This document shows positions 16,344 to 32,907 of a stretch of DNA of 33,455 nt, in pieces; positions within the stretch are counted from its first letter, which is position 1, and each line of letters starts with the position of its first letter. The DNA is from a virus: positions 1 through 33,455 of the IMG/VR virus record IMGVR_UViG_3300042924_001500; one strand, 5' to 3'. Below the pieces are notes generated by a model. That model was not told the DNA's origin, searched no databases, and worked only from the letters and a program-made list of their open reading frames with translations. Both the position numbers and the translations under genes were made by a program.

Positions 16344-16364
16344 ATGCCCAGTGACAGTGGGCAT
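16344..16364 (+). other. Stem-loop ahead of the DNA polymerase gene
   Basis: ATGCCCA (16344-16350) pairs with TGGGCAT (16358-16364) around a 7-nt loop. No T-tract follows, so it is not a terminator. It ends just before the AAGGA of the polymerase RBS and could protect the transcript or tune polymerase translation. Confidence 0.45.
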
Positions 16365-16381
16365 TGGAAAAGGAACCCGAC

Positions 16382-18313
16382 ATGATTCTCTGGATTGATT
16401 TCGAGACGCGCAGCCGCTGTGACCTGAAGGCCAAGGGCGTCTACAACTACGCGCAAGACGCGAGCACCGACGTCCTGTGCATGTCCTACGCCTTCGACGA
16501 TGGTGAGGTCGTCACTTGGCTGCCGGGCGAGCCTTTCCCTCAAGAAGTCGCCAGTCATACCGGCCTGATCTACGCCCACAACGCCGCGTTTGAGCGCCTG
16601 ATCTTCTGGTATGTCCTCCAGATCGACTTCAAGCTGGAACAGTTCTACTGCACCGCAGCGCAGGCCCGTGCCAACTGCGCGCCTGGCAGCCTTGAGGACG
16701 TGGGGCGCTTTGCTGGCGCTGACATGCGCAAGGACCACCGGGGTAGCCAACTTATCCGGCTGCTGTCTGTGCCGCAGGCCAACGGCCAGTTCCGTGAGGA
16801 CGCCGCCCTGATGGATGAGATGGTCCGTTACTGCGAGCAAGACGTCCGTGTGATGCGTGTCGTCAGCAAGTCGCTGCGCCCGCTGTCGGACGACGAACTG
16901 CTGGACTACCACGTCAACGAGCAGATCAACGATCGTGGCGTTCTGGTAGACGTGCCGCTATGCCAAGCCGCGATCAAGTACGCCGCCGATGAGACCGTCG
17001 AGATTCAGCAGATCGTGTCCGAGGTGACCGAGGGCGTCATCACCAGCGTGCGCTCGCCCAAGATGCGCGAGTGGGTGCTGGAGCGCGTCGGGCCGGAGGC
17101 CAAGAAGCTGATGTGGACGGGCGAGAAATATTCGATTGACAAGACCGTGCGGGCCAACCTGCTCGCGATGGAGAACCCCGATGAGATTCCGGCCCATGTT
17201 GCAGACGTTATTCAATGCGCAGACGACCTCTGGGCGTCTTCGGTTGCGAAGTTCAACCGCCTCTCGAACCTCGCCGATGAGGAAGATCAGCGAGTCCGAG
17301 GCGCTTTCGTTTTTGCTGGAGGGGCTGCCACCGGACGAGCGTCGAGCTATGGCGCGCAGGTTCACAACTTTACCCGCAAGTGCGCCAAAGAGCCTGATGA
17401 AGTACGCCACGCTATGGTGCGTGGCCACGCAATCACACCAAGATTTGGTCGCCGCATTACAGATGTGCTCAAGGGGATGCTTCGCCCCGCGCTGATCGCC
17501 AAGCCCGGCCACGTCCTGATCGCCTACGACTGGTCGGCCATCGAGGGCCGTGTGCATCCGTGGCTGTCCAACTGCCCGGCAGGCGAGGCCAAGCTGGACG
17601 TGTTCCGATCGGGCATGGACCCGTACAAGGTCAACGCTGCCGCGACGTTCGGCGTGTCCTACGCCGATGTCACCTCGGACCAGCGCCAAGTGGGCAAGGT
17701 GCAGGAGCTGGCCCTTGGTTTCTTAGGCGGCGCGGGCGCGTTCGAGGTGTTTGGCCGCGCCTACGGCATTCGGCTGTCGGTGTCCGAGGTGAACAAGGCC
17801 GTGGAGGGCTGGCGCAGGGCAAACCCTTGGGCGCAGGCCCACGGCCAGCAGCTCGAAGCCGCCTACCTTCGGGCGATGCGAAACAAAGGTTTTGAATTCG
17901 CCGCAGGGCGCACTGTGTACTTGTTCGACGGGCAAACGCTCTGGTACAGTCTGCCTTCCGGTCGGGTGCTTTGTTACCCCAACGCCAAGTTTGACGCCGA
18001 GGGCAACGTGACATACACCAAAGCAGCATGGAAACCCGCCGCCGATGCCAAAGAGTGGCCCCGCGCCCGTTTGTGGCGCGGTCTGGCTTGCGAGAATGTC
18101 ACGCAGGCGACAGCCCACGACATCCTGCGCCACTCACTGCGCCAGCTCGATGGCGTCGTTTTGCACGTTCATGACGAGATCGTTGTCGAGTGCCCGGCCC
18201 ACGAAGCCGAGGCAGTCGCCGCCCACATGCACCAGATCATGTGCAGCCCGCCCGCTTGGGCCGAGGGCTTGCCCTTGGCCGCCGAGGGCGTCACCACCAC
18301 CCGCTATTCGTAA
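16382..18313 (+). CDS. Family A DNA polymerase with 3'-5' exonuclease
   Basis: The start at ATG 16382 (MILWIDFETRSRCDLKAKGV) has AGGA 7 nt upstream; an in-frame TTG at 16364 lies inside a stem-loop. The 643-residue protein has an N-terminal exonuclease: motif I D6-x-E8, motif II HNAAFER (Glu71 where Asp is classical, a form I recall for this phage family) and motif III Y150-x3-D154. The polymerase carries motif A AYDWSAIEGR (Asp383), motif B R435-x3-K439 with LGFLGG, and motif C HDE at 597-599. It is the replicative polymerase, encoded with its nuclease, SSB-like and primase-helicase partners. A 5'-nuclease domain is absent, as usual for phage enzymes of this type. Confidence 0.95.
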   Translation: MILWIDFETRSRCDLKAKGVYNYAQDASTDVLCMSYAFDDGEVVTWLPGEPFPQEVASHTGLIYAHNAAFERLIFWYVLQIDFKLEQFYCTAAQARANCAPGSLEDVGRFAGADMRKDHRGSQLIRLLSVPQANGQFREDAALMDEMVRYCEQDVRVMRVVSKSLRPLSDDELLDYHVNEQINDRGVLVDVPLCQAAIKYAADETVEIQQIVSEVTEGVITSVRSPKMREWVLERVGPEAKKLMWTGEKYSIDKTVRANLLAMENPDEIPAHVADVIQCADDLWASSVAKFNRLSNLADEEDQRVRGAFVFAGGAATGRASSYGAQVHNFTRKCAKEPDEVRHAMVRGHAITPRFGRRITDVLKGMLRPALIAKPGHVLIAYDWSAIEGRVHPWLSNCPAGEAKLDVFRSGMDPYKVNAAATFGVSYADVTSDQRQVGKVQELALGFLGGAGAFEVFGRAYGIRLSVSEVNKAVEGWRRANPWAQAHGQQLEAAYLRAMRNKGFEFAAGRTVYLFDGQTLWYSLPSGRVLCYPNAKFDAEGNVTYTKAAWKPAADAKEWPRARLWRGLACENVTQATAHDILRHSLRQLDGVVLHVHDEIVVECPAHEAEAVAAHMHQIMCSPPAWAEGLPLAAEGVTTTRYS

Positions 18314-18368: not shown

Positions 18369-20621
18369 ATGGATTTTATCAGTTATATCTGCTCACTGCC
18401 AGCCGATGGTGAAACTGCCTTGATGGTGTTGCAAAAACCCGTCGGTCGTGAGATTCAATTGCACGCCGATGGCGCGATCAAGGCGACCTGGCCAGCGTTC
18501 CTGCCCGGCCACAAGATGAAACCCGGCGCTTGGTACGGCAACACGGCCAGCTTCATCGTCGACCGTTTCAAGGATGGCCACGTCAGCGCCTCCGCTGCCA
18601 ACTGCGAGTACGTCATTGTGATGGTGCTGGATGATGTGGGCACGGACAAGGTGCCCAACACCTGCCCGCTGCCCCCGACTTGGATCATGGAGACCTCGCC
18701 CGGCTCGTTTCAATGGGGCTACGCCTTCAGCGAGCAACCCCGCAAGGGCGACTTCGCTGCCGCGATCAAGGCGATTGCCGAGGCAGGCTACACCGACAAG
18801 GGCGCGATCAACGCCGTGCGCAACTTCCGTCTGCCCGGCTCGATCAACCTGAAACCCGGCCGCGACAACTTCACCGCTGCGCTGGTCGAGTTCAACCCCG
18901 AGCGCGAGTACAGCCTCGAAGAACTGTGCGCGGCCATGAAGGTCACGCCCGGCCCGGTCGAGTCGGTCTACGCTCCGGTCCGAGTCCAAGACGATGGTGG
19001 CGACGATGTGATGGCCTGGCTGTCGGATAACGGACTGGTGCTCTCTAACCCAAACCAAGAGGGCTGGGCTGGCGTGGTCTGCCCTAACGCTGCTGAGCAC
19101 ACAGACGGCAACCCCGAGGGCCGCTACATGCCCGCGAACCGTGCGTACTGCTGCCTGCACTCGCACTGCCTGGAGCTGGACTCTTCGACGTTCCTCAAGT
19201 GGGTGGCCGACAGTGGTGGCCCGGTCCACTCGCCCGGCCTGCGCGACGAGCTGCTGGTCAGCGCGATGGAGTCAGCACTCAGTAAGCTGCAACCGACTGC
19301 CGACTTCCCCAACGTGGCCGCTACAGTGGTGGCCGAAACTCAGCGCAAGGAAATGGCACGGGTCGAGAAGGCCGACTGGTGGGATCGCTTCGCCTACCTG
19401 CAAGACGATGACGCCTACTTTGACATGCAAGACCGCCGCGAGATCAGCCGCAGCACGTTTAACGCCATGTTCCGGCACATCGGCTGCAAGTCTATCCATA
19501 ACGGCCGCAAGGTCGAGGCGTCTTACTCGTTTGATGAGCAGCGCCAAGACAAGGGCGCGCAGTCGCTGGTCAGCGTGACCTACGCGGCAGGCGCCAGCAC
19601 CATCGTCAACCGTGACGGGCTAACCTACGGCAACCGCTGGGTTGACGCCAGACCAAAACCGATGCCCGGCGACGCTACCCCCTGGCTAACCCACGTCGAG
19701 CGCATGATCCCCGAGAAGTTCGAGCGTGAGCACCTCTTAAACGCGCTGGCGCACAAGGTGCAGTTCCCCACGCACAAGATCAACCACGCGATCCTAATGG
19801 GCGGCAACCACGGGTCGGGCAAAGACACGATGTTTGCGCCGTTCTTTTGGGCCATCGGTGGCGACGCCAAGCGTAATTGTTCGCTGGTCAAAAACGAAGA
19901 CCTGACGTCGCAATGGGGTTACGCCCTCGAGTGCGAAGTGATGGAAATCGCCGAACTGCGCCAAGCCGAAGCCAAGGACAGGCGCGCGCTTGAAAACACC
20001 CTCAAGCCCATCATTGCAGCGCCCCCTGAGTTACTGACGATCAACCGCAAGGGCTTGCACCCGTATTACGCTCTGAACCGGGTCTTCGTGGTGGCGTTCT
20101 CAAACGAGCGTGTCGCTATCAGCTTGCCCTCTGAGGATCGCCGCTGGTTTGTGCTCTGGTCTGAGGCGGCTAAGTTAACTGAGCGCGAGGCGCTGGCGCT
20201 GTGGAACTGGTACAAAAACCAAAACGGATACCAAGCAGTGGCCCATTACCTGCACACCCGTGACGTCTCGGCTTGGAACCCTACCGCGCCCCCTCCGCTA
20301 ACTGAGGCCAAGCAAATCATGGTCGAGCATGGCATGAGCACATCCGAAGCCTTTCTGGTTGACATGCTGCGCCGCCGCGCGGGTGAGTTCGCTCGTGGGG
20401 TGATCGGCTCGCCCTTCCATGCGCTGTGTGACCGTTTGCAGGGTATCGCACCCCAAGGGACTAAGATCGTTCAAGGCGCGCTGCTACACGCTATCAAGGA
20501 AGCCGGATGGATTGACTGCGGCCGCCTGGCCGCGCAGGGTTACCCCAGCAAAAAGCACATTTTCCGCGCGCCTGATGTTGACCTGAGCAAATCGGAGCTT
20601 AGGCGCGTGGTGGAGACATAA
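18369..20621 (+). CDS. Primase-helicase (RepB-like primase plus DUF5906/VirE-type helicase)
   Basis: A 750-residue two-part protein. The N-terminal ~200 residues hold VIVMVLDDVGTD and WIMETSPGSFQWGYAF, then RNFRLPGSINLK. This is the pattern of RepB-like archaeo-eukaryotic primases in phages (acidic pair, then R/H-rich strand). A Cys/His segment near 235-265 (CPNAAEH, then YCCLHSHC) may bind zinc. The C-terminal half is a superfamily 3-like helicase of the DUF5906/VirE type, with Walker A GGNHGSGKDT at about 478-487, VMEIAELRQ, and the AFSNERVAISLPSEDRRWF arginine-finger-like end. It would prime and unwind DNA for the family A polymerase just upstream. RBS AGGAG lies upstream of ATG. Confidence 0.85.
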   Translation: MDFISYICSLPADGETALMVLQKPVGREIQLHADGAIKATWPAFLPGHKMKPGAWYGNTASFIVDRFKDGHVSASAANCEYVIVMVLDDVGTDKVPNTCPLPPTWIMETSPGSFQWGYAFSEQPRKGDFAAAIKAIAEAGYTDKGAINAVRNFRLPGSINLKPGRDNFTAALVEFNPEREYSLEELCAAMKVTPGPVESVYAPVRVQDDGGDDVMAWLSDNGLVLSNPNQEGWAGVVCPNAAEHTDGNPEGRYMPANRAYCCLHSHCLELDSSTFLKWVADSGGPVHSPGLRDELLVSAMESALSKLQPTADFPNVAATVVAETQRKEMARVEKADWWDRFAYLQDDDAYFDMQDRREISRSTFNAMFRHIGCKSIHNGRKVEASYSFDEQRQDKGAQSLVSVTYAAGASTIVNRDGLTYGNRWVDARPKPMPGDATPWLTHVERMIPEKFEREHLLNALAHKVQFPTHKINHAILMGGNHGSGKDTMFAPFFWAIGGDAKRNCSLVKNEDLTSQWGYALECEVMEIAELRQAEAKDRRALENTLKPIIAAPPELLTINRKGLHPYYALNRVFVVAFSNERVAISLPSEDRRWFVLWSEAAKLTEREALALWNWYKNQNGYQAVAHYLHTRDVSAWNPTAPPPLTEAKQIMVEHGMSTSEAFLVDMLRRRAGEFARGVIGSPFHALCDRLQGIAPQGTKIVQGALLHAIKEAGWIDCGRLAAQGYPSKKHIFRAPDVDLSKSELRRVVET

Positions 20622-21232: not shown

Positions 21233-21426
21233 TCTATAATCCAATATTCTACTTTTGTTGGTTTGCCATCGGTATAATAATTTTTCCAGCTAGGAACGGA
21301 AAGCCCGACAATTTGCCCGTTTCCGTATCTTGTTTTCCACTCTACAATTTCAGGTTTTTGGTGGCTTGGATTTACGTCCAATGGCCCGATAAATCGGAAA
21401 AATTCCTCTTTTGTGACTTGTTTCAT
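21229..21426 (-). CDS. Hypothetical protein of the accessory block (65 aa)
   Basis: The start at ATG 21426 (MKQVTKEEFFRFIGPLDVNP) overlaps the stop of the GP88-like gene as ATGA. The 65-residue product has one N-terminal helix with Phe residues and a beta-rich C-terminal half (EIVEWKTRYGNGQIVGLSVP, then YYTDGKPTKVEYWIIE). I do not recognise a family. The G-N-G-Q and S-V-P-S-W segments suggest a small beta domain. Confidence 0.55.
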   Translation of the reverse strand: MKQVTKEEFFRFIGPLDVNPSHQKPEIVEWKTRYGNGQIVGLSVPSWKNYYTDGKPTKVEYWIIE

Positions 21427-22100
21427 GCTGCTACCTTCATCATGATGACTTTGGCCATTTTGCGGCCGTGGGCAGGGTAGCAAATAAGATCGATTGACTT
21501 ATCCCAGCACGCGCGACAGCCGGAGCACTTGCCGTCGTGCTCATAAGCCCTGCAAAGTGACGCGCCTGGATGTTCTTGGAATGTTTCAGCGCTGGGTCCA
21601 ATCACTGAACCATGCAAGCCAGGGATATATTCGCCGTTGATTGAATCGGCCGAAAAGCGCACGCTGACATTGGCCAGCGCTTTCATTTGCTCGAGCACCT
21701 GGCGAAACTTGGGGAATTTATGCATGCGCGTGGGGAGCCAGTGCTTCACCCAGGGCGTACGCTGCATGACTTCGAGCACTTTTTCAGCCAGGGCCAGGCT
21801 GTAAAGATCTCCGCTGTCGAGCCAGCGGAAATAATCGTCGCGCTGTAACTCTTGCACCATGTTGTCGCACCAGTCCAGGCGGGTCCAATCGGTGCGATTA
21901 AATTCTCTAGGTGCTTTGACGTTGGCGAAAACGTAATTCCCCGTGGTGGCGTAACAGCCCTTGCAGGCGTCAACGAGCACGCCCGGTGACTCGAGCGAAC
22001 CAGGGCAGGTGTCTAGCGCTTGTAAGGACCATGAGCGGATCCCGTCCAGCTTGGATGTCACGCTGATGCGTGGCCAGGCTTGCAAAATGTAATTGTTCAT
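21423..22100 (-). CDS. GP88-like cysteine-rich protein
   Basis: A 225-residue protein with spaced cysteine clusters. These are DTCPGS then DACKGCYATTGNYVF at about 30-57, and near the C-terminus LCRAYEHDGKCSGCRACWDK. Between them lies the RWLDSGDLYSLALAEKVLEV segment, and then PWVKHWLPTRMHKF. The C-P-x...GCYA opening and 'R.L.SGDLYS...W.PTR' order resemble what I recall as the GP88 family first seen in mycobacteriophages. Its layout suggests a TIM-barrel-like or Fe-S-binding protein of unknown reaction. It is the largest gene of the accessory block. It has its own RBS AAGGA in a repeated junction cassette and couples to three downstream genes. Confidence 0.65.
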   Translation of the reverse strand: MNNYILQAWPRISVTSKLDGIRSWSLQALDTCPGSLESPGVLVDACKGCYATTGNYVFANVKAPREFNRTDWTRLDWCDNMVQELQRDDYFRWLDSGDLYSLALAEKVLEVMQRTPWVKHWLPTRMHKFPKFRQVLEQMKALANVSVRFSADSINGEYIPGLHGSVIGPSAETFQEHPGASLCRAYEHDGKCSGCRACWDKSIDLICYPAHGRKMAKVIMMKVAA

Positions 22101-22680: not shown

Positions 22681-22718
22681 GCGTTTTTGTCACGTTTGCG
22701 ACAGCCTGGGCCATGTTC

Positions 22719-22939
22719 TGGGTCGAATTGTCATGTTCTGGGTCATGTTGCGAGGGCAGTTTGACCCATAAGAAAGCTAGTATCCATGCGGGTTTGCGGC
22801 CGTTCTGGGTCAAATTGTCATTGTTTTTCTTTAGTCTAAGAAAATAAATATATATATATAGGCTGAGACGCTACCGCGTCGACAGCACGCCACAGAGCGC
22901 ACCTTCGGAAATTTCGTGACAATTTGACCCATAACGGCC
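22719..22939. repeat. Cluster of TGGGTCAAATTGTCA-type sites in both orientations
   Basis: Copies: plus strand 22719-22733 (one mismatch, G for A) and 22806-22820; a plus half-site at 22739-22745 followed by diverged bases; minus-strand copies at 22755-22768 (half) and 22917-22931. The copies at 22798-22820 and 22917-22939 extend to 23 bp and are inverted relative to one another with 22 of 23 positions identical. Between them are an imperfect palindrome (22826-22845) and an AT-only stretch (22841-22860). The interval contains no convincing gene. Sites like these bind a sequence-specific protein; origin or operator is inferred. Confidence 0.8.
22841..22860. other. AT-only tract, candidate DNA-unwinding element
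   Basis: Twenty consecutive A/T bases ending in a (TA)n run, lying inside the inverted repeat pair. The surrounding genome is GC-rich. Together with the flanking sites it has the general look of a replication origin core, but the sequence alone cannot prove this. Confidence 0.4.
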
Positions 22940-22998: not shown

Positions 22999-23034
22999 GA
23001 TGACCTATAAGATGACCCATAAGATGACCTAGAA
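22999..23034 (+). repeat. Three tandem 12-bp repeats
   Basis: GATGACCTATAA, GATGACCCATAA and GATGACCTAGAA follow each other without gaps at 22999-23010, 23011-23022 and 23023-23034. The middle copy contains the TGACCCA core of the nearby inverted sites. They end 8 bp before the ATG of the small gene at 23043, so a protein bound here would sit on or next to that gene's transcription and translation start. Confidence 0.85.
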
Positions 23035-23042
23035 TCCTGGCC

Positions 23043-23255
23043 ATGCCTAGACATTGCAGCCCCGACACCAAATATTTTCAGCGCGTTTTATCGCCAGCGG
23101 ACCGCGCGGTTTTGCTGGCCGCTGGTGCGGGTGATCTGTCCAATGGTTTCAGAGAGATCCTCGCTGTTTATGTAACCCTGTGGAATGCCGGTTTGCGACC
23201 TGGCCAGATAGATGATTTTTTACAATCAGATATAACAATTCGGCATAACGATTAA
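23043..23255 (+). CDS. Small possible DNA-binding protein (70 aa)
   Basis: A 70-residue protein starting MPRHCSPDTKYFQRVLSPAD. The segment 28-40 (GAGDLSNGFREIL) resembles the 'GxGxLSxGIRxxI' turn and helix of small ribbon-helix-helix-like phage proteins. The remainder is a helix with Leu/Val and a C-terminal FLQSDITIRHND. No clear RBS precedes the ATG, which follows three tandem repeats by 8 bp. It is the only gene in the repeat-rich control region, so it is the natural candidate for the protein that binds the repeats. This is inference. The fold assignment is weak, and an unrelated small protein is possible. Confidence 0.45.
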   Translation: MPRHCSPDTKYFQRVLSPADRAVLLAAGAGDLSNGFREILAVYVTLWNAGLRPGQIDDFLQSDITIRHND

Positions 23256-23331: not shown

Positions 23332-23399
23332 CCAAGCCCCAAGCCCCAAGCCCCAAGCCGCTTGCAGTTTGCTTGAAGCCTGAATAGTTGAAGCCTGAA
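23332..23399. repeat. CCAAGCC x4 tandem repeat and TTGAAGCCTGAA direct pair upstream of terminase
   Basis: Four perfect contiguous copies of CCAAGCC occupy 23332-23359. Two perfect copies of TTGAAGCCTGAA follow at 23373-23384 and 23388-23399, 15 bp apart. A run of eight G lies at 23404-23411. No gene is supported from 23256 to 23525. Repeats next to the small terminase gene can form the packaging (pac or cos) recognition site; this is inferred from position only. Confidence 0.7.
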
Positions 23400-23470: not shown

Positions 23471-23499
23471 TTAGAAAAAATGACAATTTGACCTACAAT
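23471..23499 (+). promoter_or_regulatory. Predicted terminase-operon promoter overlapped by a repeat site
   Basis: TACAAT (23494-23499) is a 5/6 match to a -10 box; a weak -35-like TTAGAA (23471-23476) lies 17 nt upstream. TGACAATTTGACCTA (23481-23495), a 14/15 match to the repeat cluster in inverted orientation, covers the spacer and the first base pairs of the -10. A protein binding this site would be expected to block or alter this promoter. The small terminase gene starts at 23526 with AAAGGG upstream. Confidence 0.5.
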
Positions 23500-23525: not shown

Positions 23526-23906
23526 ATGGAATCTCATTCCGTAACAGCATCTGGAAAAAAACGCGGGCGACCGCTGAAGATGACGATCCAGAGGTACGCA
23601 GAGAACCCGCCTGCGATCCTGCCGAAGACGGATCACCAACGCATCAAAGAGCTGAAAGAGCTGATGATCCGGTCTGGCGGCAAGGATGTCGCCGAGAAGG
23701 TGATCCAGATTGCGCTCAATGATGAGCACCCTGGTCAGATGGCGGCGCTGAAGATGTGCATGGACAGGACGCTGCCAATCGGTATGTTCGAGAAGGACAA
23801 GAACCAGCGCAGCGCCATCACGATCAACATCACGGGTCTGGGCGAGGCGCCGACGATCATCGAAGCCGAGGACGGTTACAACGTCAAGGACGTTACAGAT
23901 GTCTGA
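23526..23906 (+). CDS. Terminase small subunit (putative)
   Basis: A 126-residue protein with a basic start MESHSVTASGKKRGRPLKMT. It has a central helical segment ENPPAILPKTDHQRIKELKE, then LMIRSGGKDVAEKVIQIAL, and a C-terminal NQRSAITINITGLG. The position immediately upstream of, and overlapping (8 nt) with, the large terminase makes it the likely small subunit, which recognises viral DNA at the packaging site. The 'KTDHQRIKELKxLMI..GG' order is familiar from genes at this place in aquatic podophages, but I cannot confirm the family. The repeat-rich region upstream would be its candidate binding site. Confidence 0.65.
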   Translation: MESHSVTASGKKRGRPLKMTIQRYAENPPAILPKTDHQRIKELKELMIRSGGKDVAEKVIQIALNDEHPGQMAALKMCMDRTLPIGMFEKDKNQRSAITINITGLGEAPTIIEAEDGYNVKDVTDV

Positions 23907-25158
23907 CCTCAATTTCTCACTGCTGCCTTGGCAGCAACAGGTCTACGCCGACCAGACCCGGTTCAAGGTGATTGCCGCCGGGCGGCGCTGTGGGAAGTCA
24001 AGACTGGCAGCCACCACTCTGATCATCGAGGCGCTCAAGTGCCCACCGGGTTCGGCTGTCTTGTACGTCTCGCCAACAATGGGGCAGTCGAGGCAGATCA
24101 TCTGGGACTTGCTGCTGGACCTGGGCCGCGAGGTGATCCAGTCGAGCCACGTCAACAACTTGGACATCACGATGGTGAACGGCGCGCGCATCTACGTCAG
24201 GGGCGCAGACCGACCCGACACGCTGCGAGGCGTCTCCCTAACTTACGCGGTGCTCGACGAGGTGGCCGACATCAAGCCCGAGGCGTGGGAGCAAGTCATT
24301 CGGGCGTCGCTGTCGGATAGGAAGGGCCGAGGGATGTTCATCGGCACGCCCAAGGGCCGGAACTGGTTTCACGACCTGTGGAAGCTGGGGCAGGATAACC
24401 AAGACAGCGACTGGAAGAGCTGGCACTTCACCACGCAGGACAACCCGCTGATCGACCCGACCGAGATCGAGTCGGCGAAGAAGACCCTATCTACCTTCGC
24501 GTTCAAGCAGGAATACCTGGCCAGCTTCTCGAATGCGGGCGCGGATGTGTTCAAAGAGGAATGGATCAAGTACGGCCAGGAGCCGGACTACGGCAGTTAC
24601 TTCGTGGCGGTGGACTTGGCCGGGTTTGAGGAAGTGGCCAAGCAGGCGGCTAATAGTAAGAAGCGGCTGGATGAGTCAGCGATTGCAGTCGTCAAGGTGA
24701 CGGACGACGGCAAGTGGTTTGTGAAAGAGATCGAGCACGGGCGCTGGGATATTCGCGAGACGGCGGCCAAGATACTGATAAAGATGCGGGATTACCGCCC
24801 GCTGTCCATCGGCATCGAGAGAGGCGCGCTGAAAAACGCGGTTCTGCCGTATTTGAGCGACCTGATGCGTAAAAATAACGTGTACAGCCATATCGTGGAT
24901 TTGACGCACGGCAACCGGAAAAAAACGGACCGGGTGATTTGGTCTTTGCAGGGGCGGTTTGAACACGGTAGAATCGTCCTGAACAGCGAAGAGGAATGGG
25001 GCACGTTCGTGGACCAGCTTTTGATGTTTCCGTCGCAGGGCGTTCACGACGACCTGCCGGATGCGCTGTCCTACATCGACCAGTTGGCCGTCACCAGCTA
25101 TTTTGAAGACGCTGACGACGAGGACTGGCAGCCGATGGATGTAATATCGGGGGTATAG
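23899..25158 (+). CDS. Terminase large subunit (ATPase and nuclease)
   Basis: A 419-residue protein with a Walker A-type GRRCGKS (28-34), a Walker B/DE box YAVLDE (116-121), and a coupling motif GTPKGR (149-154). The C-terminal RNase H-like nuclease has Asp239 in FVAVDLAG, Glu307 in SIGIERGAL and the pair Asp384-Asp385 in HDDLPDAL. These are the residues expected for metal-dependent cleavage of concatemeric DNA. It packages DNA through the portal encoded next. It is compact but normal for podophage terminases. Confidence 0.95.
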   Translation: MSDLNFSLLPWQQQVYADQTRFKVIAAGRRCGKSRLAATTLIIEALKCPPGSAVLYVSPTMGQSRQIIWDLLLDLGREVIQSSHVNNLDITMVNGARIYVRGADRPDTLRGVSLTYAVLDEVADIKPEAWEQVIRASLSDRKGRGMFIGTPKGRNWFHDLWKLGQDNQDSDWKSWHFTTQDNPLIDPTEIESAKKTLSTFAFKQEYLASFSNAGADVFKEEWIKYGQEPDYGSYFVAVDLAGFEEVAKQAANSKKRLDESAIAVVKVTDDGKWFVKEIEHGRWDIRETAAKILIKMRDYRPLSIGIERGALKNAVLPYLSDLMRKNNVYSHIVDLTHGNRKKTDRVIWSLQGRFEHGRIVLNSEEEWGTFVDQLLMFPSQGVHDDLPDALSYIDQLAVTSYFEDADDEDWQPMDVISGV

Positions 25159-25178: not shown

Positions 25179-27209
25179 ATGGATCAAAATGAGTTCGACG
25201 AGCCGACAGAAAACGACAAAGAGCTGACGGCCTTTGTCGTTGACCATTGCGACCGCTGGCGCGACTACCGCAACACCAACTTTCTGGACGATTACCTCGA
25301 ATATGAGCGTATTTTCCGTGGCGAGTGGGCGGCAGAAGACAAAACGCGCGACTCTGAGCGATCAAGAATCGTGACGCCTGCCACCCAGCAGGCAGTCGAG
25401 ACCCGGCACGCGGAGATCATGGAAGCGATCTTCGGCCAGGGTGACTTTTTCGACATTGAAGACGACCTCAAAGACATCAACGGCAACCCGTTGGACGTGG
25501 AGATGCTCAAAGCGCAGCTCACAGAGGACTTCAAGCAGGACAAGATCAGAAAAGCGATTGATCAGATCGAGCTGATGGCCGAAATCTACGGCACTGGCAT
25601 CGGCGAGATCGTCGTGAAGACGGAAAAGGTGTTCGAGCCTTCAACGCAGCGGATTCCAGGGCAAACGAGCCAAGCGGCCATCGGCGTAGTGGAAAAAAGC
25701 CGGATTGCGGTCAAAATCATGCCCGTCAACCCCAAAAACTTCCTGTTTGACCCCAACGGGACAAGCATCGACGACTGCATGGGCGTGGCGATTGAGTCGT
25801 ATGTGGGCATCCACAAGATCGTTGAAGGCATCGAGAAGGGTATCTACCGCAAGGTGAACATCACCCCGACGTATGAGGACACCGATCTGGAGCCGACGCA
25901 GGAGATGAGCCAGTACCGCGACGAAAAAGTGCTGCTGTTGAAGTACTACGGCCTGGTGCCACGCGAATACCTGACCGACAAGGACGAGGAAGTTGCGGTT
26001 TTGTTCCCCGACGACTCGGCTGCCGAGGACTATTCGGACATGGTGGAGGCGATTGTCGTGATCGCCAACGGCGGCCTGCTGCTCAAAGCGGAAGAAAACC
26101 CGTACATGATGAAGGACCGTCCGGTCATCAGCTACCAAGACGACACGGTGCCCAACCGCCTGCTGGGCCGTGGCACGGTGGAGAAGTCCTACAACATGCA
26201 AAAGGCGATTGACGCTCAAGTCAGGTCGCACTTAGACAGTCTGGCGCTGACCACCAGCCCCATGATGGGCATGGACGCGACCCGGTTGCCACGCGGCGCT
26301 CGGTTCGAGGTCAAGCCAGGCAAGGCGTTCATGGTCAACGGCAACCCAGCCGAGATTCTGTACCCGTTCAAGTTCGGCGAGACGAGTCTGAACAACCTGA
26401 ACACGGCCAAAGAGTTCGAGCGTATGCTGCTGCAAGCCACTGGCACGCTGGACAGCCAAGGCATGGTGAGCCAAGGCAACCGAGACGGCGCGGGCATGAG
26501 TATGGCGGTTGCCACGATCATCAAGAAGTACAAGCGCACGCTGGTCAACTTCCAAGAAGACTTCCTGATCCCGTTCATCCAAAAGGCGGCGTTCAGGTAC
26601 ATGCAGTTCGACCCCGAGCGTTACCCAAGCGTTGACATGAAGTTCTTGCCAACGGCCACGCTGGGCATCATTGCCCGCGAGTACGAGCAGCAGCAATTCA
26701 TTGGTCTCTTGCAGACGCTGGGTCCAAACACCCCGGTGCTGCCGCTGATCTTGAAAGGCATCTTGAACAACTCCAGCCTGTCCAACCGCTACGAACTGAT
26801 GGGCGCACTGGACCAGATGAGCCAGCCAGACCCACAAGCGCAGCAGATGCAACAGGCCCAGCAGCAGTTGGCCATGCAAGCGGCGCAGGCTCAGATTGCG
26901 GTCAACACGACGCAAGCCGAGCAGAACCGGGCCGAGGCGACCAAGCTGATGACCGAGGTGCAACTGATGCCGCAAGAGGTGCAGGCCAAGGTGATTGCAT
27001 CGACCACCAAGAACCTGCCAGCGGGCAACGAGTCGGCAGAGTTTGACAAGCGCGTCAAGATTGCGGAATTGATGCTCAAGGAAGCGGACATGAAGAACAA
27101 GAGCAAGATTGTCGAACTTCAGATGGCCGAAAAGAAAAACAAAGTCGCCGGAATGGAAGAAGACTTCTTGGATCAACTGACACAGGAGCTGAACAATGGA
27201 CGCGGATAA
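25179..27209 (+). CDS. Portal protein
   Basis: A 676-residue protein with a long charged N-terminal part (WRDYRNTNFLDDYLEYERIF; RGEWAAEDKTRDSERSRIVT) and a core with ITPTYED, DDTVPNRLLGRGTVEKSYNM and MLLQATGTLDSQGMVS. A long Gln/Ala-rich helical crown follows (QAQQMQQAQQQLAMQAAQAQ) and an acidic end. Size, domain order and position after the terminase fit the portal of P22-like podophages, the dodecameric ring through which DNA enters and leaves the head. GGGG in the RBS position lies upstream. The end overlaps the fibre gene by 14 nt. Confidence 0.85.
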   Translation: MDQNEFDEPTENDKELTAFVVDHCDRWRDYRNTNFLDDYLEYERIFRGEWAAEDKTRDSERSRIVTPATQQAVETRHAEIMEAIFGQGDFFDIEDDLKDINGNPLDVEMLKAQLTEDFKQDKIRKAIDQIELMAEIYGTGIGEIVVKTEKVFEPSTQRIPGQTSQAAIGVVEKSRIAVKIMPVNPKNFLFDPNGTSIDDCMGVAIESYVGIHKIVEGIEKGIYRKVNITPTYEDTDLEPTQEMSQYRDEKVLLLKYYGLVPREYLTDKDEEVAVLFPDDSAAEDYSDMVEAIVVIANGGLLLKAEENPYMMKDRPVISYQDDTVPNRLLGRGTVEKSYNMQKAIDAQVRSHLDSLALTTSPMMGMDATRLPRGARFEVKPGKAFMVNGNPAEILYPFKFGETSLNNLNTAKEFERMLLQATGTLDSQGMVSQGNRDGAGMSMAVATIIKKYKRTLVNFQEDFLIPFIQKAAFRYMQFDPERYPSVDMKFLPTATLGIIAREYEQQQFIGLLQTLGPNTPVLPLILKGILNNSSLSNRYELMGALDQMSQPDPQAQQMQQAQQQLAMQAAQAQIAVNTTQAEQNRAEATKLMTEVQLMPQEVQAKVIASTTKNLPAGNESAEFDKRVKIAELMLKEADMKNKSKIVELQMAEKKNKVAGMEEDFLDQLTQELNNGRG

Positions 27210-29625
27210 ACTGGCTATAGATTTGCTCTTGAAGGGCATGACGCAGGACCAACAGACAGCGGCTCTGGAGTCCATCAAAGAGTCGGTAGCGCAGGCCAAG
27301 GCCATCCAAAAACAACGCATTGGCGAGAACGTCCAAGTCGTGGTTCAGGCTCTCAAGAAGTTGGAAGCGGACATCCGCGACCGCTACGATGAGGTGGGCA
27401 ACAAGATCGAAAAGCGTGTGGCCACCATCAAGGATGGCAAAGACGGCTCGAATGGCGTCAATGGCAAGGACGGCAAAGACGGTCGGCCAGGTCGTGACGG
27501 TGGTCAAGGCCCACGCGGCAATGATGGCTTAAACGGCAATGATGGCCGCGACGGCGAGGACGGCGTGTCGGTCACGGACGCGCACATCGACTTTGACGGC
27601 AGTCTGGTGATCAGTCTGTCGTCTGGCCGCACGATTAACGTGGGCGAGGTGGTGGCCCCCGACTTGGCCGAGAAGATCAAGGTGATCACGAACGGCGGCG
27701 GCACAAGCCAAGGCGTGCTGGATACGCTGGCCAGCTTGCAAACACAGATTGACAACATTCCAGGTGGTGGAGATGTAGTTGGCCCTGCTTCTGCGACTGA
27801 TAGCAGCTTGGTGGCTTTTAATGGCACAACGGGCAAGCTGATCAAGCAAGCTGCAACGGTGACCGTTGCCCAGGGCGGTACAGGCACGGCATCCCCCGCC
27901 TTGGTTGCGGGAACAAACGTCACGATCACAGGCGCATGGCCTAACCAAACGATCAACGCTTCTGGCGGTGGTACGGTGACATCTGTGGATGTGTCGGGCG
28001 GCACAACAGGCTTAACGACCTCCGGCGGCCCGGTTACTACATCAGGAACAATCACTCTTGCGGGTACTTTGGCAATTGCCAATGGCGGCACTGGCCAAAC
28101 GACTGCGGCTGCCGCAATTACTGCTTTGACAGGCACTCAAACCTCTGGGCAGTATTTACGCTCCAACGGCACCAATGCCGTGCTGGCGGCAATCCAAGCT
28201 GCGGATGTCCCTACGCTGAATCAAAATACCACAGGCACTGCCGCTAACGTCACAGGTACGGTTGCGGTTGCCAATGGTGGTACAGGTGTTACGACATCTA
28301 CAGGCACTGGCAACGTGGTTCTGTCTACCTCGCCAACACTAGTGACGCCTGCACTTGGCACACCATCATCGGGGGTGGTCACCAACCTTACTGGCACTGC
28401 TTCCATCAACATCAACGGCACTGTGGGCGCTACAACGGCCTCTACGGGTGCGTTCACATCGTTGTCGGCGACTGGTGTGACAACATTCTCCGCTGGCACT
28501 GTGAGCGCCCCCGCCATCACCACATCGGGCGACACCAACACAGGCATTTTCTTCCCTGCTGCTGACACCATTGCTTTTGCTGAAGGTGGTGTGGAGGCTA
28601 TGAGAATTGATAGCTCTGCAAACGTAGGTATTGGGACCAATTCGCCCACGGCAAAACTTGATGTTTTAACTAGCATTAATTTGTCTGGTCAAAATTACCT
28701 GAACGCAGCGTATGACATTGGCGGCGGTGTTGGCTGGGTTAGTGGCTACAACGTCACATATTCATCTTCTGATATCCGAAACGTAGTTACTGGTGCGTTA
28801 ACTGGCCTTGTCTATGGCAGTGCTGGCTTTCAGTTTTACACAAATGCAAGCGCAGCAGGTGGAACTGCGGCGTCTGAACGGATGCGTATCAACTCCTCCG
28901 GCAACGTGGGGATTGGGACGAGTTCGCCTCAAGCAAAACTGGCAGTTTCCAATGCTGGTGCGGCAGGTCTTGAGTTCTTCACAAACTACCCCGGTGGTGG
29001 TGTTGGCACTTATATTCAGAGCTTTAATAGAAGTGCTGTCGCGTACTCCAACACGGCATACGATGCAGCACAACACGCCTTCTTTACCTCTGGAACCGAA
29101 CGTATGCGCCTCGACTCCAGCGGTAACTTGCTGGTGGGGACTACGAGTAATGCAAATAACGCAAGGATTAATGTCCAAGGCGCTTCTGGGGCGCGCCCTA
29201 TGGATGCAAGAAGTCCAGCCACTACAGGCTCTAGCATTACTATGATTGCTTTTTATGATGGATCAAATGATTTCTGCGGTCAAATCACTATTGATGCAGG
29301 TGCAAACACAACGCAGTACAACACCTCATCCGACTACCGTTTGAAAAACACCATTGCGCCAATGACAGGTGCTTTGGAAAAGGTGGCTTTGCTCAAGCCC
29401 GTCACTTACAAGTGGAATTCAAATGGCTCAGATGGTCAGGGTTTTATTGCTCACGAGTTGGCTAAAGTCTGCCCTGATGCAGTAGTTGGCGCAAAAGACG
29501 CAATTGATGCTGATGGCAAGCCTGTCTACCAAGGCATTGACACATCATTTCTTGTGGCAACCCTTGCAGCAGCCATTCAAGAACTCAAAGCAGAGTTTGA
29601 CGCATACAAAGCAACCCACCCTTAA
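27196..29625 (+). CDS. Collagen-like tail fibre with S74 intramolecular chaperone
   Basis: An 809-residue fibre. Residues 1-80 form an alpha-helical base (QTAALESIKESVAQAKAIQK). Residues 81-123 contain 14 collagen-type Gly-x-y triplets. A long Thr/Ser/Gly-rich beta shaft follows, with recurring units of the type MRI[DN]SS-x-N-V-G-I-G-T at about 28.60, 28.88 and 29.10 kb. The C-terminal ~100 residues are a Peptidase_S74 chaperone with the autocleavage motif S712-D-Y-R-L-K and HELAKVCPD. The chaperone drives trimer folding and then cuts itself off before Ser712. The protein probably recognises the host. It is unusual here in lying between portal and lysis genes rather than with the other fibre genes. 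Confidence 0.85.
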   Translation: MDADKLAIDLLLKGMTQDQQTAALESIKESVAQAKAIQKQRIGENVQVVVQALKKLEADIRDRYDEVGNKIEKRVATIKDGKDGSNGVNGKDGKDGRPGRDGGQGPRGNDGLNGNDGRDGEDGVSVTDAHIDFDGSLVISLSSGRTINVGEVVAPDLAEKIKVITNGGGTSQGVLDTLASLQTQIDNIPGGGDVVGPASATDSSLVAFNGTTGKLIKQAATVTVAQGGTGTASPALVAGTNVTITGAWPNQTINASGGGTVTSVDVSGGTTGLTTSGGPVTTSGTITLAGTLAIANGGTGQTTAAAAITALTGTQTSGQYLRSNGTNAVLAAIQAADVPTLNQNTTGTAANVTGTVAVANGGTGVTTSTGTGNVVLSTSPTLVTPALGTPSSGVVTNLTGTASININGTVGATTASTGAFTSLSATGVTTFSAGTVSAPAITTSGDTNTGIFFPAADTIAFAEGGVEAMRIDSSANVGIGTNSPTAKLDVLTSINLSGQNYLNAAYDIGGGVGWVSGYNVTYSSSDIRNVVTGALTGLVYGSAGFQFYTNASAAGGTAASERMRINSSGNVGIGTSSPQAKLAVSNAGAAGLEFFTNYPGGGVGTYIQSFNRSAVAYSNTAYDAAQHAFFTSGTERMRLDSSGNLLVGTTSNANNARINVQGASGARPMDARSPATTGSSITMIAFYDGSNDFCGQITIDAGANTTQYNTSSDYRLKNTIAPMTGALEKVALLKPVTYKWNSNGSDGQGFIAHELAKVCPDAVVGAKDAIDADGKPVYQGIDTSFLVATLAAAIQELKAEFDAYKATHP

Positions 29626-31828: not shown

Positions 31829-32320
31829 ATGGATTGGCTTAAACAAATCGCACCCACCATTGCCACGGCAATGGGTGGCCCACTGGCGGGAATGGCTGTG
31901 TCGGCCATCTCAAAAGCCATTGGTGTTGACCCTGACAAAGTTGGTGACATGATCTCCAACAACAAGCTGTCGGCAGAGCAGATCGCCCAGGTCAAGATCG
32001 CCGAGATTGAGCTTCAGAAGCAAGCGCAAGAGCTGGGCCTGAACTTTGAGAAGCTGGAAGTTGAGGACCGAAAGTCAGCGCGGGAGATGCAGGCCACCAC
32101 CCGCAGCCTGATGCCGCCCTTGCTTGCTGGCGCGGTGACCATTGGGTTCTTCGGCATCATGGTGATGATGTTTTTCAATCAAATCGACAGCGGCAACCCC
32201 GCTATCTTGATGATGCTGGGCAGTTTGGGTACGGCGTGGACGGGCATCATCGCGTATTATTTCGGCTCATCTGCCGGGTCGCAGGCCAAGACCGACATTC
32301 TTTCTAGGACAGCAAAATGA
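31829..32320 (+). CDS. Holin (3-TM, GTA-holin-like)
   Basis: A 163-residue protein with an N-terminal hydrophobic amphipathic helix (IATAMGGPLAGMAVSAISKA), a charged coiled segment with LSAEQIAQVKIAEIELQKQA, and two hydrophobic spans near 97-116 and 124-146. This matches the 3-TM holin family also found in gene transfer agents. It would permeabilise the inner membrane to release the endolysin encoded next. RBS AGGGG is about 9 nt upstream. The stop overlaps the endolysin ATG. Confidence 0.8.
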   Translation: MDWLKQIAPTIATAMGGPLAGMAVSAISKAIGVDPDKVGDMISNNKLSAEQIAQVKIAEIELQKQAQELGLNFEKLEVEDRKSAREMQATTRSLMPPLLAGAVTIGFFGIMVMMFFNQIDSGNPAILMMLGSLGTAWTGIIAYYFGSSAGSQAKTDILSRTAK

Positions 32321-32907
32321 CCGAAGACCAACTCAAGGAAATGCACATCGACCCGTCTTGGCTGGAGCCTTTGACCGCTGCGTTTCAGCGTTTTGACATC
32401 AGCACCCCCGAGCGCCAGGCTGCGTTCATTGGTCAGTGCGCCCATGAGTCAGGCGGGTTCAAGACCCTGCAAGAAAACCTGAATTACAGCGCCAAAGGGT
32501 TGCACGCCACTTGGCCAAGCCGCTTCGCGTCTGAAGCGGACGCACAACCTTTCCACCGCAACCCCGAGAAGATCGCCAACAAGGTCTATTCTGGCCGGAT
32601 GGGCAACACTGAGATGGGCGATGGCTGGAAGTATCGTGGCCGGGGGCTGATCCAGTTGACAGGCAAGGACAACTACCGCCTTGCCTCTGACGCCTTGGGC
32701 GTGGACTTTGTGGCCAATCCTGACTTGGTGCTGACCAAGGAAAATGCTGCCCTGACGGCAGCCTGGTACTGGAACAAGCGCGGCCTGAACAAAGAGGCCG
32801 ATGCCAAGGACTTCACCGGGATGACGAAGAAGATTAACGGCGGCGTTATCGGCTTGGAAGATCGCATCGCGCACATCAACACAGCCCTTAACGTCTTGAC
32901 GGCATAA
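32317..32907 (+). CDS. Endolysin, glycoside hydrolase family 19
   Basis: A 196-residue protein of the chitinase-like GH19 lysozyme type. It has the conserved start region PERQAAFIGQCAHESGGF with catalytic Glu44, then ENLNYSAKGL with Glu53, a GNTEMGDGWKYRGRG segment and LIQLTGKDNY. These are characteristic of phage GH19 endolysins that cut peptidoglycan glycan strands. No signal sequence is present, so export depends on the holin encoded just upstream (ATGA overlap). The closing helix is ENAALTAAWYWNKRGL and GVIGLEDR. Confidence 0.95.
   Translation: MTEDQLKEMHIDPSWLEPLTAAFQRFDISTPERQAAFIGQCAHESGGFKTLQENLNYSAKGLHATWPSRFASEADAQPFHRNPEKIANKVYSGRMGNTEMGDGWKYRGRGLIQLTGKDNYRLASDALGVDFVANPDLVLTKENAALTAAWYWNKRGLNKEADAKDFTGMTKKINGGVIGLEDRIAHINTALNVLTA

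Follow-up and report, generated by a model that had tools for sequence, protein, structure and literature searches.

What is the function of the repeat cluster that lies around an AT-only tract between divergent genes of this phage, and which phage protein reads it? The window, i.e., the whole 33,455-bp virus record analysed here, belongs to a podovirus-like phage. It encodes a family A DNA polymerase (16364–18313), a primase/D5-type helicase on the plus strand (18369–20621) as the putative initiator, gp88 among the minus-strand genes (21423–22100), a small ribbon-helix-helix (RHH)-like gene on the plus strand (23043–23255), a small gene at the terS position (23526–23906), TerL (23899–25158) and a portal protein. 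Since no family matched the 23526–23906 protein, it is called TerS-like by position only. The sequence of the 23043–23255 product suggests an RHH regulator, with no family match and a structure model too weak to confirm it; members of this small protein family (MxRPCKxDTVxFxRxL...) adjoin the array in nearly all relatives that share the layout. The array follows the primase gene at a distance of about 2 kb, separated from it by other genes, and precedes TerL by about 1 kb. As initially annotated, it lies between divergent genes, with minus-strand genes extending to 22598 and a plus-strand gene starting at 23043, and the interval holds no supported gene. Further downstream, the window encodes a tail fibre (27196–29625) that has collagen-like repeats and ends in an S74 chaperone, and it carries a GH19 chitinase-like gene, probably a lysin (32317–32907). 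A short tandem repeat of CAAGCCC units is found at 23334–23360, between the RHH-like and TerS-like genes.

The core of the array is an inverted pair of 23-bp arms, the left one at 22798–22820 on the plus strand (GGCCGTTCTGGGTCAAATTGTCA) and the right one at 22917–22939 on the minus strand (TGACAATTTGACCCATAACGGCC). The reported inverted identity of 22 out of 23 positions was confirmed, and the pair reaches 28 nt at 89%. The left arm is composed of two head-to-tail iterons (GGGTCAAA and TTGTCAT), and its place and orientation are the same in relatives. The AT-only tract between the arms, a putative DNA unwinding element, is exact at 22841–22860, and positions 22801–22860 are the highest-AT 60-bp stretch in the whole window. 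In addition, an accessory full-length arm-like site with one mismatch is present at 22716–22733 on the plus strand, and a half-site motif scan located TTCTGGGTCA at 22736–22745 (plus strand) and TTATGGGTCA at 22762–22771 (minus strand). Three more half-sites, overlooked in the initial annotation, lie on the minus strand at 23001–23034 with 12-bp spacing, just 5' of the 23043 gene (TTATAGGTCA, TTATGGGTCA and TTCTAGGTCA). The extra TGGGTCA/TGACCCA sites described before are present, with two corrections: the site at 22719 reads TGGGTCG, with one mismatch, and the one placed at 22755 is TGACCCA at 22762–22768.

Allowing up to three mismatches, the 18-mer TTCTGGGTCAAATTGTCA has four sites in the window against 0.03 expected (0/100 shuffles), and this array is the sole place where they cluster. 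With up to one mismatch, TTMTGGGTCA matches at 11 positions (2.9 expected), of which 8 fall in a 320-bp span at the array. Since the bare 7-mer TGGGTCA is not over-represented across the whole window (6 vs. 3.9 expected), the signal resides in the clustering and the long core. GC skew, computed as a check, showed no turn at the array.

Relatives were collected via TerL, the RHH-like protein or the primase, and they bore out the expectation that the core would recur at the same syntenic place: dozens of uncultured podoviruses related to this phage have the array between their primase and terminase genes. The exact 15-mer was found in at least 119 stretches of viral contigs; since many of the single matches are probably due to chance, conclusions were limited to syntenic or paired sites. 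Among isolated phages, the array gave chance-level matches only, TerL was less than 60% identical to all of them and the RHH-like protein had no match. By primase, MW202483.1 comes closest among the named relatives (49.5%), and the arm finder detected no pair in it. Seven contigs assigned to bacterial genomes (metagenome-assembled or uncultured; labelled Rhodoferax in two cases) also encode primase relatives, and they may be phage contigs binned with a host.

Within the syntenic group, the layout is kept and the arm letters change as one set between genomes: TGGGTCAAATTGTCA, TTAGTCATGTAGTCA (type B), GGGTCATTTGGGTCA (type J) and TGTGGACAATGTGGA (type K), plus the rarer TGGGTCATGTTG (type C), TTAGTCAAATAGTCA (type D), GGCCATATATGCCATATAT and TGAGGGCAATGAGGGCAAT. 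Arms are head-to-tail iteron pairs with a period of 8 in types A to D and 9 in J and K, and their start-to-start distance is 88–128 bp in the 32 distinct genomes of types A and B. The AT core is similar between these two types, and the change of arms is accompanied by a complete exchange of the accessory half-sites: type A genomes have on average 3.5 copies of TGGGTCA and none of GTAGTCA, and type B genomes have none of TGGGTCA and on average 3.7 of GTAGTCA. A search with the type B arm pattern, in which the allowed gap was too narrow, returned one contig. A block directly left of the left arm (CCATGCGGGTTTGCGG, 22785–22799) is kept in both arm types, with a further copy on the right-hand side of the array in some type B relatives. 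Four more distant phages (L153, L174, L212 and L217; TerL about 25% identical) have several type A-like sites too, arranged in other ways, together with another inverted repeat with TAATAGCTA units downstream of the primase.

The sequence of the protein that reads the arms should change along with them, and this premise was applied to the primase with five neighbouring proteins as controls; the polymerase, with a single type B row, had too few for this comparison. For types A and B, guessing the arm class from the nearest neighbour was right in 13 of 27 cases for the RHH-like protein, 14/26 for the TerS-like protein, 13/24 for TerL, 5/10 for gp88 and 13/17 for the portal, and none of these proteins had a separating column. 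For the primase, 19 of 20 guesses were right, and five of 763 columns separated both types, all near the C-terminus. When 86 primases with six arm types were scanned (arm classes GGGTCATT vs. GGGTCATG as reassigned, with one K-type protein still mislabelled), the top four of 766 columns corresponded to window residues 726, 721, 723 and 720, scoring from 0.65 to 0.40, while the maximum over 200 label shuffles was 0.15. Since label shuffles take no account of relatedness, the real control comes from the neighbouring genes and from a tree. This tree, built from the helicase domain of the primase-helicase itself, shows arm type no less scattered than chance would have it (7 changes against a shuffled mean of 6.2). 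Supported branches force at least three switches, each accompanied by matching changes in the wing residues. As a sign test on three supported pairs is too small to become significant, the weight is placed on the column scan and the neighbour controls.

These results bear on the earlier proposal of an origin or a master switch. The locus could be an operator, with the repeats binding a phage repressor, e.g., the adjacent RHH-like protein, to control two divergent operons. The divergent flanking genes, the sites in both orientations and the 12-bp-spaced half-sites just upstream of the RHH-like gene would fit an operator. However, the RHH-like protein does not track arm type, and genomes with different arms encode versions of it that are about 95% identical, so the switch read by this protein is contradicted and the covariation rules it out as the arm reader. 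In addition, an operator needs neither an AT core nor facing arms, and the arm letters track the replicative primase-helicase instead, which makes an operator improbable. The origin half of the proposal is strongly supported by the synteny, the similar AT core and arm letters that covary with the wing of the primase-helicase but with no protein among the five neighbours compared.

A DUF5906 match corresponds to the D5-type helicase core of the primase-helicase. No Toprim-type primase domain was found in this protein; the N-terminal part matches RepB_primase instead, with an E value of 0.00025, just under the curated cut-off. Residues 421–750 were modelled with AlphaFold2 using 35 sequences, giving a mean pLDDT of 87.5, with the C-terminal part mostly above 88. 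The C-terminal helix-helix-hairpin is predicted to be a winged helix with residues 720–726 at the tip of the hairpin, encoded at 20526–20546 on the plus strand, where A721, Q723 and P726 are the arm-associated residues. With the whole fragment as the query, the nearest solved folds were the NrS-1 helicase region, SaPI5 PriRep1 on dsDNA, and pox or ASFV D5-type helicases.

The wing tip residues follow the arm letters in two parts. At positions 721 and 726, A with P or Q goes with GGGTCA, M with T goes with TAGTCA, and K with D goes with GTGGACA. At position 723, R goes with a following ATG, and Q or H with AAA. G or S at this position occurs with ATT in a V-A-S context and with AAA in two L-A-S proteins (L130 and L335); it thus pairs with two arm types depending on context, which counts against the proposed recognition by the wing. 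Types C (A..R..P, GGGTCATG, L097) and D (M..H..T, TAGTCAAA, L100) fit the two-part code with one primase each. The residue rule agreed with the best-matching downstream motif in 112 of 119 proteins, and in 30 of 36 where no such arm pair had been detected, as a consistency check and not a blind test, since the rule was written after most of the data had been seen. The sequences point, with reasonable though incomplete confidence, to a podovirus group with interchangeable origin specificities, in which a short residue-to-base code lies at the wing tip of one initiator domain and switching has been repeated and independent of the rest of the protein. If true, otherwise near-identical phages would fall into different replication-specificity groups.

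What is looked for in an iteron origin is found at this locus: a cluster of short repeated sites by an AT-rich tract, an encoded initiator with a D5-type helicase core, a C-terminal winged-helix domain in the initiator as a prediction, and an initiator specificity that matches the iterons by covariation at 721, 723 and 726. Considering the sequence comparison, the structure model and the analogy with known systems, the array is very probably the replication origin of the phage, with paired iterons and an AT-only tract, read by the primase-helicase via the wing tip of its C-terminal winged helix. The lack of a GC-skew turn at the array and the distance of the array from the primase gene count against this reading. 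In the proposed mechanism, each arm would act as a head-to-tail pair of short iterons, both arms facing across the unwinding tract. The primase-helicase would dock on the arms by its winged helix, with wing tip residues 720–726 reading the iteron letters. Two oppositely oriented assemblies would then load, one on each side of the AT tract, melt it, and subsequently prime and unwind in both directions; this opening by two assemblies is proposed by analogy. The flanking half-sites would probably raise the local concentration of the initiator and may let it control the divergent promoters. As both flanking promoter regions are dense with half-sites, the initiator may also have a secondary, regulatory role at the array.

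Such regulation could instead be the main function, with the initiator binding here mainly to control the surroundings or the copy number and the true origin being elsewhere in the genome. P4 has a second required region besides ori, which is a precedent, and the accessory sites spread over both promoter regions would agree with it. However, the 18-mer cluster occurs nowhere else in the window and the array holds its most AT-rich 60 bp, so a separate origin is considered very unlikely.

A conserved block at 23481–23498 (reverse complement of TGAC[AT]ATTTGACCTACAAT) is shared by many relatives, in which it lies about 30–45 bp 5' of the TerS-like gene. Although iteron-like in appearance, it does not follow arm type and was not counted as part of the array; it has two forms, whose distribution matches the relatedness of TerS-like and TerL in 28 of 30 cases, and it is possibly a late promoter or a packaging site. 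A packaging site (pac or cos) read by the terminase at the array itself is hardly credible: packaging sites are often near terS and the array is close upstream of TerL, but TerS-like and TerL do not track arm type, which leaves either protein unsupported as the reader, and the block directly 5' of the TerS-like gene is the better packaging or promoter candidate.

As an origin read by its primase-helicase, the locus resembles several known systems. In SaPI Rep and SCCmec Cch2, C-terminal domains recognise iteron origins, and two hexamers have been proposed (PMC7581432). The phage initiator shares with SaPI Rep/PriRep1 and Cch2 a primase-D5-type helicase that would read an iteron origin via its C-terminal domain, and SaPI5 PriRep1 is among its nearest solved folds. 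In contrast to these elements, the origin is about 2 kb from the helicase gene and not directly downstream of it, the arms face across a short AT tract, specificity is associated with a few wing residues, and the element is a podovirus. P4 alpha is a single protein with a Toprim-type primase and a helicase, and it binds the origin repeats through a C-terminal winged helix (PMC4234260). The same three parts would be joined in the phage initiator, with the winged helix as predicted here, whereas its N-terminal part is RepB-type-like, and the P4 domain gave no direct match among the 50 best folds listed for the fragment. In PLE RepA of Vibrio cholerae satellites, the DNA-binding domain of the initiator and the origin iterons covary and have been swapped between elements, and the PLE ori is attacked by an origin-directed nuclease (PMC8263062). 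This covariation is shared, but the RepA_N domain changes as a block between two groups, while in the phages the differences lie inside a single domain, where a few wing residues follow four or more iteron types. The NrS-1 primase-polymerase/helicase is the best fold match and the only sequence match in solved structures, with about 17% sequence identity in the fold match; this likeness concerns the protein only.

Iteron/AT-rich origins with a primase-D5-helicase initiator are already known from P4 alpha and SaPI Rep, and the new part, in our best reading, is that origin specificity switches in nature by residue-level changes in the wing. A narrow, open-access literature search found no paper on such an origin in freshwater phages or on wing-iteron covariation, which is weak evidence of novelty. 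The locus gives a well-supported candidate origin and initiator for a phage group almost without isolates. It also represents a natural experiment in DNA recognition, in which near-identical proteins with few wing differences sit beside origins that differ at the matching bases, and therefore a wing-based recognition code for D5-type initiators is directly testable. The question raised is why such similar phages keep changing their origin specificity, with satellite parasites, origin-directed nucleases as in ICP1/PLE (PMC8263062) and competition during coinfection as candidates; by analogy and as a speculation, a pressure like that of the PLE origin-directed nuclease could drive the switching here.
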